Source: Marinibacterium anthonyi
GTDB lineage: Bacteria > Pseudomonadota > Alphaproteobacteria > Rhodobacterales > Rhodobacteraceae
Reading direction: 5' to 3'
NCBI GenBank assembly: GCA_003217735.2
Contig: CP031585.1
Span: 1,475,501-1,539,500, forward strand
DNA length: 64,000 bases
Position numbers and translations under genes: made by a program. Under the pieces are notes generated by a model. That model had not been told where the DNA came from. It saw only the letters and a program-made list of their open reading frames with translations, and made no database searches. Positions within the stretch are counted from its first letter, which is position 1, and every line of letters begins with the position of its first letter. This document shows, piece after piece, positions 10,462-21,216 of this stretch.

Positions 10462-12441
10462 TCACAGAAGATCCGGCGCCGTCGCTTCGCGGCCAAGGCC
10501 GGCGACCACATCGGCCAGGCTTTCCACCCTGGTCTGCTTCTCGCCCAGGCGACGGACCGACACGGTACGCTCTTCGACTTCACGCGCGCCGACGGCCAGG
10601 ATCACCGGGACCTTGCCGACGGAATGTTCACGGACCTTGTAGTTGATCTTTTCGTTGCGCAGATCGGCCTCGGCCCGGACACCGGCGGCGGACAGCTGGG
10701 CCACGACCTCGGTCACGTAGTCATCCGCCTCGGACGTGATCGAGGCGACGACAACCTGGCGCGGGGCCAGCCAGAAGGGCAGCTTGCCTTCCCAGTTCTC
10801 GATCAGGATGCCGATGAAGCGTTCGAACGATCCCAGGCAGGCGCGGTGCAGCATGTAGGGCCGGTGCTTGTCGCCATCCGCGGCGATATAGCTGGCGCCC
10901 AGCCGTTCCGGCAGGTTCGGGTCGACCTGGAAGGTGCCGCATTGCCAGACCCGGCCGATCGCATCGGTCAGGTAGAAATCAAGCTTGGGCCCGTAGAACG
11001 CCCCGTCGCCCGGTTCCAGCGTATAGTCGCGGCCAACCGCCTTGATGGCGTTTTCCAGCGCGCCTTCGACATAGTCCCAGCTTTCCTCGGTCCCGACGCG
11101 CTTTTCGGGGCGCGTGGCAAATCGGATCTCGAACTTCTCAAACCCAAGCTCTTCATAGACATTCGCCAGGAAATCGATGAAGCGCGCGCATTCCGACTGG
11201 ATCTGGTCTTCGGTGCAGAAGATATGCGCGTCGTCCTGGGTAAAGCCGCGCACCCGCATGATGCCGTGCAGCGCGCCCGAGGGTTCGAATCGCGAACACG
11301 ATCCGAATTCGGCCAGCCGCAGGGGCAGGTCGCGGTAGGACTTGAGCCCCTGGTTGAACACCTGCACGTGGCAGGGGCAGTTCATCGGTTTCAGCGCGTT
11401 GATCCGCGTCTGGTCCTTATTCTTTGCGGACGCATCGTCGTTCTCGCCGTCGCGGCTTTCATCCACTTCGACGATGAACATGTGGTGCTGGTACTTGTCC
11501 CAGTGGCCCGAGGCTTCCCACAGCTTGCGGTCGACGACCTGCGGCGTGTTGATCTCGCGGTAGCCACCGGCGCGCTGCTTGCGCCGCATGTAATCCTGCA
11601 GGGTCGTGTAAATGGTCCAGCCGTTGGGGTGCCAGAACACCTGGCCCGGGGCTTCTTCCTGCATGTGGAACAGGTCCATCTCGCGGCCCAGCTTGCGGTG
11701 GTCGCGCTTGGCGGCCTCCTCCAGCATGTGCAGGTGGGCCTTCAGCTTTTCCTTGCCGGTGAAGGCCACGCCATAGATCCGCTGCAGCATCTGCCGCTTG
11801 CTGTCGCCGCGCCAGTAGGCGCCGGCGATCGACATCAGCTTGAAGGCATCCGCCGGGACCTGGCCGGTGTGCTGCAGGTGGGGCCCACGGCACAGATCCT
11901 GCCAGTGCCCGTGCCAGTACATGCGCAGGGGTTCGTCGCCGGGAATCGCGTCGATCAGCTCCACCTTGTACGGCTCGTTGTTGGCCTCGTAGAACTTGAC
12001 CGCGCGCTCGCGGTCCCAGACCTCGGTGGTCACGGGATCGCGGCGGTTGATGATCTCCTTCATCTTGGCCTCGATCTGGCCAAGGTCTTCCGGAGTAAAC
12101 GGTTCCTTGCGGTCGAAGTCGTAATACCAGCCGTTGTCGATGACGGGGCCGATGGTGACCTTGGTGTCGGGCCAGATCTCCTGCACGGCGCGGGCCATGA
12201 TGTGGGCCAGGTCGTGGCGGATCAGCTCGTTCGCCTGGGCTTCGTCCTTCATCGTGTGGATGGCGATGTCGGCATCCGTGTCGATGGGCCACTGCAGGTC
12301 CCAGTGCTTGCCGTTGACGGTGGCGCTGATCGCCTTCTTGGCAAGCGAGGTGGAGATGTCGGCAGCGACCTGCGCAGGCGTGATGCCGGCGTCGTAGGAA
12401 CGCGAATTGCCATCGGGAAGGGTGAGAGAGATTGGGGCCAT
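10462..12441 (-). CDS. thrS: Threonyl-tRNA synthetase
   Basis: A 659-residue class II tRNA synthetase that charges tRNA-Thr in the cytoplasm. Domains in order are TGS (residues 1-61, [13 protein letters not shown]), the second additional/editing domain with HDLAH near residue 75 and a later [12 protein letters not shown], the catalytic core with NCPCHVQVF holding a zinc-ligand cysteine, and a C-terminal anticodon-binding domain ([16 protein letters not shown] onward). ATG 12441 starts the TGS domain; a longer in-frame ATG at 12540 adds an unconserved segment. It is a single gene with no partner. All class II motifs seem intact and the length fits the family. Confidence 0.97.
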
Positions 12442-12574
12442 GTCGGCTCTCCTCGTCGGTTTGGCGCCCACGGAACGCCCGGTTGCGGGTATGTTGCGGG
12501 GGTTTAAGTGACGGCAGGAGGACACGGAGTCAAGCGGCAAGGGCCGCCTGTGCGGCCCTTGCGATAGCGACGTG

Positions 12575-12976
12575 TCAGGCCGTCAGAAGGACCACCGCAA
12601 AGGTCAGCAGGCAGGCCCAGCCGGCCAGGTGCAGCAGCGGGCGCAGCGGCATCTTGGCGATGCCGGTGATGTAGCCCGCCGCGTGCAGAACGCGGATCCA
12701 GAAGAACGCGCAGGCGGTGGCGGCGGTGACCGGGGTCGACACCCCCATGCCCTGTGCGACCAGGACCAGCACCGCGAACGGCAGGAATTGTTCCAGCAGG
12801 TTCAGGTGCGCCCGCCAGGCGCGTTGCGTCATGTCCGTCATCGCGGTGATCTGCGGGATCCGGTCGAAGGTGGCATAGCGTGCATTGGAACCGGTGGCCG
12901 ACAGCGCCACGAAGGGGATCCAGAGAGAACCGGCCAGGATCGCGGTCAGCACCAGCCAGAACAGTTCGGGCGTCAT
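12575..12976 (-). CDS. MAPEG-family membrane protein
   Basis: A 133-residue integral membrane protein with four hydrophobic helices, matching the MAPEG family (membrane-associated eicosanoid/glutathione metabolism), which in bacteria are mostly uncharacterised. Family marks include an N-terminal [15 protein letters not shown] helix, the Arg/Asn-rich loop [19 protein letters not shown] and a C-terminal helix. Its ATG overlaps the stop of the ArsR-SRPBCC gene (ATGA), so the two are co-transcribed and translationally coupled. A glutathione-linked detoxification role is possible, but nothing in the sequence gives a substrate. Confidence 0.87.
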
Positions 12977-13725
12977 TGGGGCATTTCCGGGAAGAAGCGG
13001 TGCGCCTCGCCGGTTTCCAGGAAGGTCTTGATGCCCGCAAGGAACCGGGTCCAGCCGTCGCCGATGCCCGGCTGGCTGCCCGGAATGTCGTAATGCTCGA
13101 CGGTCAGCTTCATGCCCGATGACGTGGGCTCGACCAGGTAGACGCAGCGCGACTCCGTCGCATCGCCCCCCCAGGAGGGCAGGAACACCATCTCGATCCG
13201 GGTCTTGGGGTCGATGGCGATGACCCGGTTGGTCAGCATCGGGTTTCCGTCGGGAAACAGATAGGCGATTTCGTCGCCGGTGGTTTCCATGTTGCCGCGC
13301 GCGGCCTGGCAGGCGTGGTGATAGCGGGCGATGACGTCGCCGCGGGTCAGCGCGTCCCACAGGGCGTCCTGGGTGCAGTTGATGAAGGTCGACAGGATAA
13401 AGTCCGGTTTTGTCATGGTTCGGTCCTCGAGTTGGGCTTTCAGATCCGCCAGCGCTTGGGCCTGGGGCTTGAGGAAGGGATGGATCCAGCGATCGATCAC
13501 TTCCTGCAGGGGCAGGGCATTCAGGTAGTGGTACTTGAACCGCCCCCGCTTGCGCGTGACGACGAGATGGGCGTCCTCGAGCACCTTGAGATGCTTCATC
13601 ACCCCGAACCGGGTCATGTCCAACTGCTCTTCCAGCTCGGTCAGTGTCTGCCCGTCCTTCGCGCGGAGCGAGTCCAGGAGCGCGCGGCGGGCAGGGTCGT
13701 TGAGGGCCTTGAAGATCGCGTCCAT
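12973..13725 (-). CDS. ArsR-type HTH regulator fused to an SRPBCC (AHSA1) domain
   Basis: A 250-residue fusion. Residues 1-85 form an ArsR-family winged helix (DAIFKALNDPARRALLDSL, then FGVMKHLKVLEDAHLV). Residues about 105-245 form an AHSA1/SRPBCC ligand-binding barrel (TFINCTQDALWDALTRGD, later GMKLTVEHYDIPG and GWTRFLAGIKTFLETGE). The domain order is known in alphaproteobacteria and suggests a one-component sensor for a hydrophobic ligand. No ArsR metal-binding cysteine pair is visible. A 50-bp dyad ending 6 bp upstream of the ATG suggests autoregulation. It is followed by a coupled MAPEG gene and faces a divergent hydrolase gene. Confidence 0.92.
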   Translation of the reverse strand: MDAIFKALNDPARRALLDSLRAKDGQTLTELEEQLDMTRFGVMKHLKVLEDAHLVVTRKRGRFKYHYLNALPLQEVIDRWIHPFLKPQAQALADLKAQLEDRTMTKPDFILSTFINCTQDALWDALTRGDVIARYHHACQAARGNMETTGDEIAYLFPDGNPMLTNRVIAIDPKTRIEMVFLPSWGGDATESRCVYLVEPTSSGMKLTVEHYDIPGSQPGIGDGWTRFLAGIKTFLETGEAHRFFPEMPQ

Positions 13726-13730
13726 GGAAT

Positions 13731-13780
13731 CGCTTATACGTTACTATTGGGTCACGTGACAAGATGGTAACCTATAAGCG
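13731..13780. promoter_or_regulatory. 50-bp concentric dyad, putative operator
   Basis: Three inverted repeats share one centre at 13755.5: outer CGCTTATA/TATAAGCG, middle GTTAC/GTAAC and inner GTCACGTGAC. Over the 25-base half-sites 20 positions match. It lies between the ArsR-SRPBCC gene and the divergent hydrolase gene and overlaps where both promoters should be. Binding of the adjacent ArsR-type regulator, which would bind as a dimer or pair of dimers, is inferred. Confidence 0.62.
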
Positions 13781-13834: not shown

Positions 13835-14578
13835 ATGAGCGAACCGAACTACCTGGAAACGCCGCAGGGCCGGCGGCTGGCCTATCACCGCACCGAAGGC
13901 CGGGGGCCGATGGTCGTGTTCCTGGGCGGGCTGAAGTCCGACATGGAGGGCACCAAGGCGGTGGTCCTGGAAGCCTGGGCCAAGGCGGCGGGGCGCGCGT
14001 TCCTGCGGTTCGACTATTCGGGCCACGGCCAGTCGAGCGGCACGTTCGAGCAGGGATCCATCGCCGATTGGCACGAGGATACGCTGGCCGCCATCGAGGC
14101 GCTGACAGAGGGACCGCTGGTGGTGGTGGGGTCGTCCATGGGCGGCTGGCAGGCGCTGCTCCTCGCTCGGGCTTTGCCCTCACGCGTCGCGGGGCTGGTG
14201 ACCGTGGCGGCAGCCCCCGATTTCACCGAAGATGGCTATTGGGCCGGGTTCACCGACGCGCAGAAGGCGCGGATCGAGGCCGGGCAGGCGGTGGAACTGC
14301 CGTCGGATTACATGGAGCCCTACATCGTCACGAAGAAGATGATCGACGACGGGCGCCGCTGCCTTGTGCTGCGCGCGCCGCTGGACCTGCCGTTCCCGGT
14401 GCGGCTGTTGCAGGGCACGGCGGATACGGCCGTGTCGGTCGCCACGGCGGTCGCGCTGCTGGACCACGCGACCAGCCCCGACATGCGGCTGACGATCGTG
14501 AAGGACGCCGATCACCGGTTTTCCGACGACACCTGCCTGGGCCTGATCAAGGCGGCGGTCGAAGAGGTCTCGGGGTGA
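13835..14578 (+). CDS. Alpha/beta hydrolase
   Basis: A 247-residue cytosolic hydrolase with nucleophile elbow GSSMGG (Ser in VVVGSSMGGWQ), an oxyanion-region VVFLGGLKSDMEGTK, acid in GTADTAVSV and catalytic His in DADHRFSD. The early segment RFDYSGHGQSSG is typical of small carboxylesterase/lipase-like proteins. GGAGG lies 6 bases before ATG 13835, so this start is preferred over 13802. It is divergent from the ArsR-SRPBCC gene, shares the dyad at 13731-13780 and overlaps the next gene, starting a rightward cluster of hydrolase-type genes. The substrate is unknown. Confidence 0.9.
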   Translation: MSEPNYLETPQGRRLAYHRTEGRGPMVVFLGGLKSDMEGTKAVVLEAWAKAAGRAFLRFDYSGHGQSSGTFEQGSIADWHEDTLAAIEALTEGPLVVVGSSMGGWQALLLARALPSRVAGLVTVAAAPDFTEDGYWAGFTDAQKARIEAGQAVELPSDYMEPYIVTKKMIDDGRRCLVLRAPLDLPFPVRLLQGTADTAVSVATAVALLDHATSPDMRLTIVKDADHRFSDDTCLGLIKAAVEEVSG

Positions 14579-15165
14579 GCCGGCGGCTGCTGTTCATCAC
14601 CCATGCCGACGTGCGGATCGACCCGGACGTGCCGGTGGACCGCTGGCCGCTGAACGATCGCGGCCGGGCGCGGCACGCGGCATTCTCGGCCAGTGACGCG
14701 GTGGCGGGGGTGACGGCGGTCTATGCCAGTGCCGAGCAGAAGGCGCAGGACGGTGCGGCGATCCTGGCGCAGGCCCGGGGGCTGCGGGTGCAGACCGTCG
14801 CGGCGCTGCATGAAAACGACCGGACGGCGACGGGCTACCTTCCCCGGGAAGACTTCGAGGCGATGGCCGATGCGTTCTTTGCCCGGCCCGAGGTTTCGGT
14901 CCGTGGATGGGAGCGGGCAGCGGACGCGCAGGCGCGGATCTGTGCGGCGGTGAGCGGGATCGCGGCGGCAGACGGCACCGAGGGCGACATTGCCATCGTG
15001 GCCCATGGCGGGGTCGGGGCGCTGCTGCTGTGCGACCGGATGGGCGTGGCGATCAGCCGGGCGCAGGATCAGCCGGCGAACGGCGGGGGGAATGTTCTGG
15101 CGTTCGCCTTGCCGGACTTGAGTTTGATCCACGGCTGGCGCGATATTGCCCCCATGTCCGGTTAG
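14575..15165 (+). CDS. Histidine-phosphatase superfamily protein
   Basis: A 196-residue protein of the histidine phosphatase (phosphoglycerate-mutase-like) superfamily. The catalytic strand reads LLFITHADV, where the usual RHG is replaced by THA but the His is kept. The second conserved His sits in IVAHGGVGALLL, and WPLNDRGRARHAAF is the usual follow-on segment. The GTG start at 14575 overlaps the previous stop by coupling, in the pattern GTGA. The altered first motif may change activity, though variants of this kind occur in the family. Phosphate donor and substrate are not predictable. Confidence 0.82.
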   Translation: MSRRLLFITHADVRIDPDVPVDRWPLNDRGRARHAAFSASDAVAGVTAVYASAEQKAQDGAAILAQARGLRVQTVAALHENDRTATGYLPREDFEAMADAFFARPEVSVRGWERAADAQARICAAVSGIAAADGTEGDIAIVAHGGVGALLLCDRMGVAISRAQDQPANGGGNVLAFALPDLSLIHGWRDIAPMSG

Positions 15166-16194: not shown

Positions 16195-16267
16195 GGCGGA
16201 GCGGCGCGGACCGCGTCCGCAAAGCGCCCGCCCGCCCGCCCCGCTTTCCGGACGCGGTCCGCGCCTG

Positions 16268-21064: not shown

Positions 21065-21113
21065 TACGGTCGGCGGAACTTCGCTTTCTGTTCCCTGGGA
21101 GTATGAATTTTTT

Positions 21114-21152
21114 CTGCGGCGCAGCACTTTCTCTTGAAATGCTGCGCCGCAG
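21114..21152. promoter_or_regulatory. Two PhaR-type operators upstream of phaP
   Basis: CTGC-GGC-GCAG (21114-21124) and CTGC-GCC-GCAG (21142-21152) both fit the CTGC-N3-GCAG PhaR site exactly and lie 28 bp apart, 65-103 bp before the phaP start. In known PHB systems PhaR represses phaP until granules titrate it away. Occupancy here is inferred from sequence. Confidence 0.72.
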
Positions 21153-21216
21153 CATATATTGTAAATCAGGAATTGAAGGACGGGGTGGGCCCGGACGGAG
21201 AACCAGGAAGAGTACA

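Follow-up and report, generated by a model that had tools for sequence, protein, structure and literature searches.

According to the accessible parts of the published reports, Rv2034 of Mycobacterium tuberculosis is a dimeric ArsR-like autorepressor (PMC3338718) that lies in an operon with Rv2035, a COG3832 protein (PMC3968373). Its footprint covers a 20-bp palindrome near its own start codon, CCGTAAGT-CTAA-ACTTACGG, which can be written as GTAAG-N6-CTTAC; a half-site was enough for binding in vitro, and the authors favoured a signal other than metal ions (PMC3338718). In the available text of Makarova, Wolf and Koonin (2009), two-gene ArsR-COG3832 modules lack metal motifs and were proposed to be toxin-antitoxin-like or, alternatively, to serve in stress or drug response (PMC2701414). 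A Stenotrophomonas pair of this kind showed no toxicity in the sections of its report that could be consulted (PMC7650669), and AHA1-related domains in ArsR-family proteins had been noted before, as excerpts of an earlier paper indicate (PMC2577659). The available text on ArsR/SmtB repressors places their sites over the promoter (PMC4486848), as in the locus described here. ArsR-SRPBCC regulators are widespread, and their roles as toxin-antitoxin or drug-response modules have been guessed. The literature that we searched, which left out most subscription journals, contained no study of a fused regulator or of a doubled site, and for GTCACGTGAC, the centre of the dyad, it gave mainly eukaryotic contexts.

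In the window (the whole 64,000-nucleotide stretch of Marinibacterium anthonyi DNA that was analysed), the two domains are joined in one ArsR-SRPBCC protein of 250 aa, encoded on the minus strand at 12973-13725 and identified by Pfam, alignment and a structural model. The HTH_20 profile (PF12840) matched residues 10-57 with 41.2 bits against a cut-off of 27, which places the protein in the ArsR/SmtB family, and AHSA1 (PF08327) matched residues 117-237, so that an ArsR HTH is coupled to an AHSA1/SRPBCC domain. NF033788 gave 59.4 (cut-off 55), PF01022 gave 21.9, just below its cut-off of 22, and the SdpR autorepressor profile NF033789 gave 55.7 bits, below its cut-off of 100. In the model (pLDDT 85.8, pTM 0.56) a long linker helix joins an ArsR winged helix to an AHSA1 fold, with a low-confidence hinge at residues 71-110. 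In a Foldseek structure search, which covered pdb_via, residues 104-244 superposed on AHSA1-type structures with Z up to 17.2, and the CadC chain 1u2w_B matched the model with Z 13.4 and rmsd 1.1 over 70 aligned residues.

The winged-helix fold is common to the window protein and the metalloregulators CzrA, SmtB and CadC. Unlike these, the window protein has no Cys in its DNA-binding domain, which leaves no Cys-based alpha3 metal site, carries a C-terminal SRPBCC domain and is associated with a doubled site. Its Cys residues (117, 139 and 194) are all in the SRPBCC part. Of 42 aligned proteins, 39 have Cys117 and 39 have His136. Both residues are possibly in or near the pocket, and a reaction with electrophiles there is conceivable and would suit the MAPEG partner described below. 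As far as the accessible text allows the comparison, the protein has the same two domains as the ArsR-COG3832 modules and likewise no metal motifs, whereas such a module is made of two separate adjacent genes. It also resembles the Rv2034 system in pairing an ArsR with an AHSA1/SRPBCC protein and in the 20-bp site geometry within its own promoter. The available text on Rv2034 describes two separate proteins, one site and another half-site, whereas the window has one chain and two abutting sites; Besides repressing itself, Rv2034 activates dosR and phoP; by contrast, the site of the window occurs only once in its genome. In several genomes (G831, G855, G1040, G1048, G1052, G1061, G1103, G1125, G1139, G1150, G230, G058 and G286) a second SRPBCC match, 41-49% identical over residues of about 100-245, adjoins the fusion gene. 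It is probably a domain duplication, except perhaps in G230, where the match may be to the second half of the fusion itself.

The dyad lies between the fusion gene and a divergent alpha/beta hydrolase gene (13835-14578, plus strand; Pfam), which has GGAGG ahead of its start. It ends 5 nt from the start codon of the fusion gene (13725, minus strand) and 54 nt from that of the hydrolase gene (13835, plus strand). Its arms, 13731-13755 and 13756-13780, meet without a gap at an axis of 13755.5, and 20 of the 25 pairs are complementary. Three repeats are nested on this axis: GTCAC/GTGAC at 13751-13760, GTTAC/GTAAC at 13740-13744 and 13767-13771, and CGCTTATA/TATAAGCG at 13731-13738 and 13773-13780. 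A recount thus reproduced exactly the concentric repeats described in the sequence-only reading. Among gapless palindromes with 25-bp arms it ranks first in the window, the runner-up having 17 of 25 pairs, and the chance expectation of such a palindrome is 5.7e-4 at the local composition. When loops of 5-11 nt were allowed, places near 16228 and 21129 in the window reached 20-22 of 25 pairs. The long inverted repeats at 16203-16263 and about 21105-21160 are possibly terminators, and the former sits after a second hydrolase gene.

The dyad had also been taken as an unusually long operator. The 50-bp dyad is real in the window, but its outermost arms were not conserved among 113 loci aligned on the axis (L093, L111, L165, L059 and L060 were left out of this set). 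Conserved symmetry was found in the GTNAC boxes and the adjoining outer A/T and T/A, to about 19 bp on either side of the axis; at positions 8-12 and 20-25 from the axis, pairing was about what column composition predicts. Because the conserved symmetry ends there, the 50-bp extent is a trait of the window's genome and not of the family. The window's symmetry score of 20 over 25 bp was the highest, the other loci scoring 11-19. No covariation between symmetric positions was detected beyond column composition. The sixth pair shows a conserved asymmetry, which comes from the TTG of a -35 element, and the symmetry around the central axis could be due in part to overlapping promoter elements. From centre to centre, the four GTNAC boxes are spaced by 11, 5 and 11 bp, and the dyad, as read from the aligned sequences, is two abutting 16-bp palindromes of the form GTNAC-N6-GTNAC and not one giant operator. 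Candidate site 1, proximal to the fusion gene, is GTTAC-N6-GTCAC at 13740-13755; candidate site 2, distal and abutting it, is GTGAC-N6-GTAAC at 13756-13771.

We compared 118 distinct fusion loci. Orthologues were drawn from one genome set, which gave 80 loci, and from 295 family genomes, of which 38 have the protein at E 1e-30 or better. The family orthologues are about 50-78% identical to the window's fusion. Site 1 matched at least seven of the eight specified bases in 112 of the 118 loci, site 2 did so exactly 16 bp upstream of site 1 in 110, and both units in 106. The putative double operator is almost unchanged beside the fusion gene in many marine bacteria, and the conservation beside orthologues that had been named as a check was borne out. 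For comparison, unit matches at this threshold occurred 33 times in 200,000 background positions. From 110 upstream regions, 96 of them distinct, 94 were aligned without gaps (L093 and L111 were left out). Read towards the fusion gene, their consensus is tTAnGT(T/G)AC(C/T)ATATTGTCACGTGACTAttTA(G/A)T(C/A)ACcTATAag, followed by 5-8 nt and, in nearly all, the ATG. Conservation is most uniform over the central ten bases, and almost no column is conserved in the flanks further from the dyad.

A third unit, 32 bp upstream of site 1 and again with at least seven of eight bases, was present in four rows of the 118 loci (L016, L063, L059 and L060), against about 0.05 expected in the 16-bp register; the four represent about three independent lineages. 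L016 and L063 have three consecutive units. L059 and L060 have two intact units with an eroded unit between them, so that the left one is shifted by 16 bp and the central palindrome is lost. Elsewhere between -80 and -1 there were only four matches at -27 and one isolated match at -58. The four, which are weak and lie 27 bp from site 1, have a box in common with site 2; they were rejected as being at the chance level, about six being expected by our estimate.

The site is tied to the fusion gene, as had been supposed. The window's own genome has one copy of the 38-bp pattern, and the next matches have three mismatches, like those of a reversed control. When no more than one mismatch was allowed, a set of 290 family genomes had the pattern in 29 of the 37 that carry the fusion and in none of the 253 that do not (Fisher 6e-33, although the genomes are not independent). 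Among the remaining eight carriers, G207 and G058 have a single site, and the two sites of the other six (G063, G065, G080, G184, G154 and G230) are weaker. In G020 (L093) a DUF899 gene stands between the fusion gene and the pattern, which is therefore some 750 bp upstream; the end of the DUF899 gene overlaps the start of the fusion's frame. Such an insertion, at 794-1498 in L093 and 770-1480 in L111, makes the fusion gene the second gene of the operon. Since the double operator of L093 is still at the promoter, the operator follows the promoter. As in an autoregulatory ArsR operator, the palindrome overlaps the regulator's own promoter and is conserved with its gene.

The putative promoter of the fusion gene consists of a -35 element, TTGTCA (13757-13762, minus strand), strongly conserved in the 94 loci, and a -10 element, TATAAG (13733-13738, minus strand; T99 A100 T95 A83 in the 94 loci). 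The architecture across the loci is TTGTCA or TTGACA, 18 bp, and TATAAG. A strict-consensus promoter scan found no promoter, and the assignment of these elements therefore rests on their conservation. Site 1 lies in the spacer of this promoter and site 2 overlaps the -35. Of 116 loci, 115 have 5-8 nt between the -10 and the start codon, and only 14 have a loose Shine-Dalgarno match ahead of the fusion gene (L093 and L111 were left out of both counts). These two results suggest that the fusion transcript is leaderless. The transcript may instead have a leader and give a longer product, as upstream in-frame alternative start codons exist in 60 of the 116. In L093, where the DUF899 gene comes first, the interval between the -10 and the DUF899 ATG is about 37 nt long and contains AAGGA. 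A literature search for leaderless ArsR genes in Rhodobacter gave no relevant account.

We consider it probable that the dyad is an autoregulatory double operator of the ArsR-SRPBCC fusion, on which two dimers would sit side by side, and most likely the fusion regulator shuts off its own gene. Binding, repression, cooperativity and the leaderless start are the parts of this explanation that we infer. Each 16-bp unit, or with its flanks each 20-bp site A-N-GTNAC-N6-GTNAC-N-T, would bind one dimer through the recognition helix MTRFGVMKHL (residues 37-46). As the abutting units share the central ACGT, the two dimers would be offset by 16 bp, or about 1.5 turns, which would place them on roughly opposite sides of the DNA. 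Site 1 would fill the spacer between -35 and -10 and site 2 would cover the -35, so that occupancy would block RNA polymerase. The fusion transcript probably begins at or beside the ATG. Release of the repressor, presumably by a ligand in the SRPBCC pocket or by an altered protein level, would switch on the fusion gene and the MAPEG gene, and perhaps the divergent hydrolase gene. That two regulator dimers may be involved had been suggested from the single sequence, and we favour it as the best reading because two abutting GTNAC-N6-GTNAC units are conserved. The number of boxes need not equal the number of dimers, since a half-site sufficed for Rv2034 in vitro.

The same suggestion was that the length of the dyad may serve to shut both directions together. 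This could mean that two mirror-image promoter-operators are each closed by a dimer, site 2 serving the hydrolase, a reading that we regard as possible but not probable. In its favor, the hydrolase gene is the commonest neighbour and, in 67 of the 96 distinct loci, lies divergently right beside the operator; in addition, the outer arms of the window's dyad are identical TATAAG elements, that at 13773-13778 (plus strand) being a candidate mirror-image -10 of the hydrolase. Where another gene lies between operator and hydrolase, namely an MFS-length ORF (14 loci) or a creatininase-length gene (2 loci), it points in the hydrolase direction. We assigned these groups manually on the basis of ORF length, with Pfam tests of a few loci (L014 for the MFS loci, L013 for the creatininase loci). 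However, the candidate -10 is weak and poorly conserved in relatives. In the 67 hydrolase-adjacent loci, the leftward, hydrolase-directed -10 had a mean match of 3.1 of 6 to TATAAT vs. 4.9 for the rightward one, and the -35 match was 3.8 vs. 5.1. Both sites are also kept in L018/L090, L063/L103 and L105, where the upstream gene is co-oriented; from the translations, we take these genes to be dxs, valS and rplS, respectively. Conversely, G058 has a divergent hydrolase, 59% identical, yet a single site. Eight loci were classed as having no divergent gene, firmly for dxs, valS and rplS and with less certainty for L011, L065, L070, L059 and L060. We therefore rejected the idea that the second site is tied to the divergent hydrolase, and the proposed role of the dyad's length is not supported. 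Because site 2 is independent of the hydrolase and covers the fusion's own -35, it is better explained as strengthening repression of that promoter. Operator control of the hydrolase is still plausible.

Three target genes had been named, of which two are conserved neighbours. A hydrolase homologue was found in at least 99 of 110 loci and a MAPEG homologue in at least 90, whereas the phosphatase was found in at least 4; all of these are lower bounds as the flanks are short in some loci. In the window, the MAPEG gene (12575-12976, minus strand; Pfam) has a start that overlaps the stop of the fusion gene and is its probable operon partner. The histidine-phosphatase gene (14575-15165, plus strand; Pfam) adjoins the hydrolase gene and is sporadic. 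A thrS gene is near the fusion gene in at least 83 of the 110 loci; that of the window (10462-12540) follows the MAPEG gene and has the same orientation.

Outside the family we read 34 homologous loci. Most of these homologues consist of an ArsR domain alone and are about 100 residues long, the matches mostly covering only about residues 1-102. A gap-6 palindrome search of 110 upstream bases, with no motif supplied, gave a single site at the corresponding place in the promoter, with a half-site that varied with the recognition helix. All 22 proteins with an RQAV helix have (A)(T/G)GCAAC-N6-GTTGC, and the one RIGV protein has GTAAC-N6-GTTAC. Of nine RQS loci, five have ATGCAGG-N6-CCTGCAT within 110 nt; in the other four (L178, L180, L181 and L183) GCAGG-N6-CCTGC was found 537-978 nt upstream, with the expected pattern in hand. 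A GCAGG-type site 0.5-1 kb upstream of these four ArsR genes suggests an operon that begins with another gene. The RFGV helix goes with GTGAC: 116 of 116 family fusions carry it, and in L147 and L165, which are fusions from other families and have the helix RFGVMKHL, the sites are GTGAC-N6-GTCAC. The relatives' sites share the 16-bp geometry of the window's units, and in the readable promoters the site lies between TTGACA-like and TAT-like hexamers, matching site 1 of the window. The half-site appears to follow the helix as direct recognition predicts. Because the helix classes track clades, this match represents a few independent changes and not 34. The sites, their spacing, the exclusive gene link and the helix/half-site match are all results of sequence comparison.

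A wider proposal builds on these results. Dimers of the fusion would line up side by side around the DNA on an array of one to three 16-bp units in fixed register, with contacts between SRPBCC domains, and a hydrophobic ligand would set the cooperativity and hence how steep the autoregulation is. A helix code (RFGV-GTGAC, RIGV-GTAAC, RQAV-GCAAC and RQS-GCAGG) would hold for the whole ArsR-SRPBCC group. We think this combination unlikely as a whole. Its predicted code would allow sites of other ArsR-SRPBCC members to be predicted, and the locus supplies a precise, testable operator together with natural one-, two- and three-site variants.

It is very improbable that one dimer binds the central GTCACGTGAC while the outer boxes are promoter sequence or spacers. 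The uniform conservation of the central ten bases would fit such binding. However, the relatives' single site, with arms 11 bp apart, corresponds to half of the dyad rather than to its centre, in L059 and L060 two intact units persist without the central palindrome, and the footprinted Rv2034 site, in the accessible text, has the 11-bp geometry. The least probable reading is that the site belongs to another regulator, which the comparative nature of the fusion-site link would allow, or forms an RNA hairpin or terminator; against it, the pattern is absent from 253 of 253 non-carrier genomes, the half-site follows the fusion's own recognition helix, the dyad is upstream of the likely transcript start, and a terminator-like site was looked for there and not found.

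The two-site operator of the fusion may have a single-site origin, as judged by a tree of the first 104 residues, in which the RFGV/RIGV group forms one side of a branch with 99/99 support. The single-site L165 and L159 are outside, followed by L147, with one intact and one degenerate site, and then by the two-site family. This order is tentative because the root was placed by midpoint and L159 is a long branch. Within the family, L111 and G058 are one-site members, which indicates either loss of a site or an older one-site state. Two single-domain relatives, L157 and L184, have two separate palindromes about 30 bp apart, suggesting that doubling with another spacing occurred elsewhere in the ArsR group.
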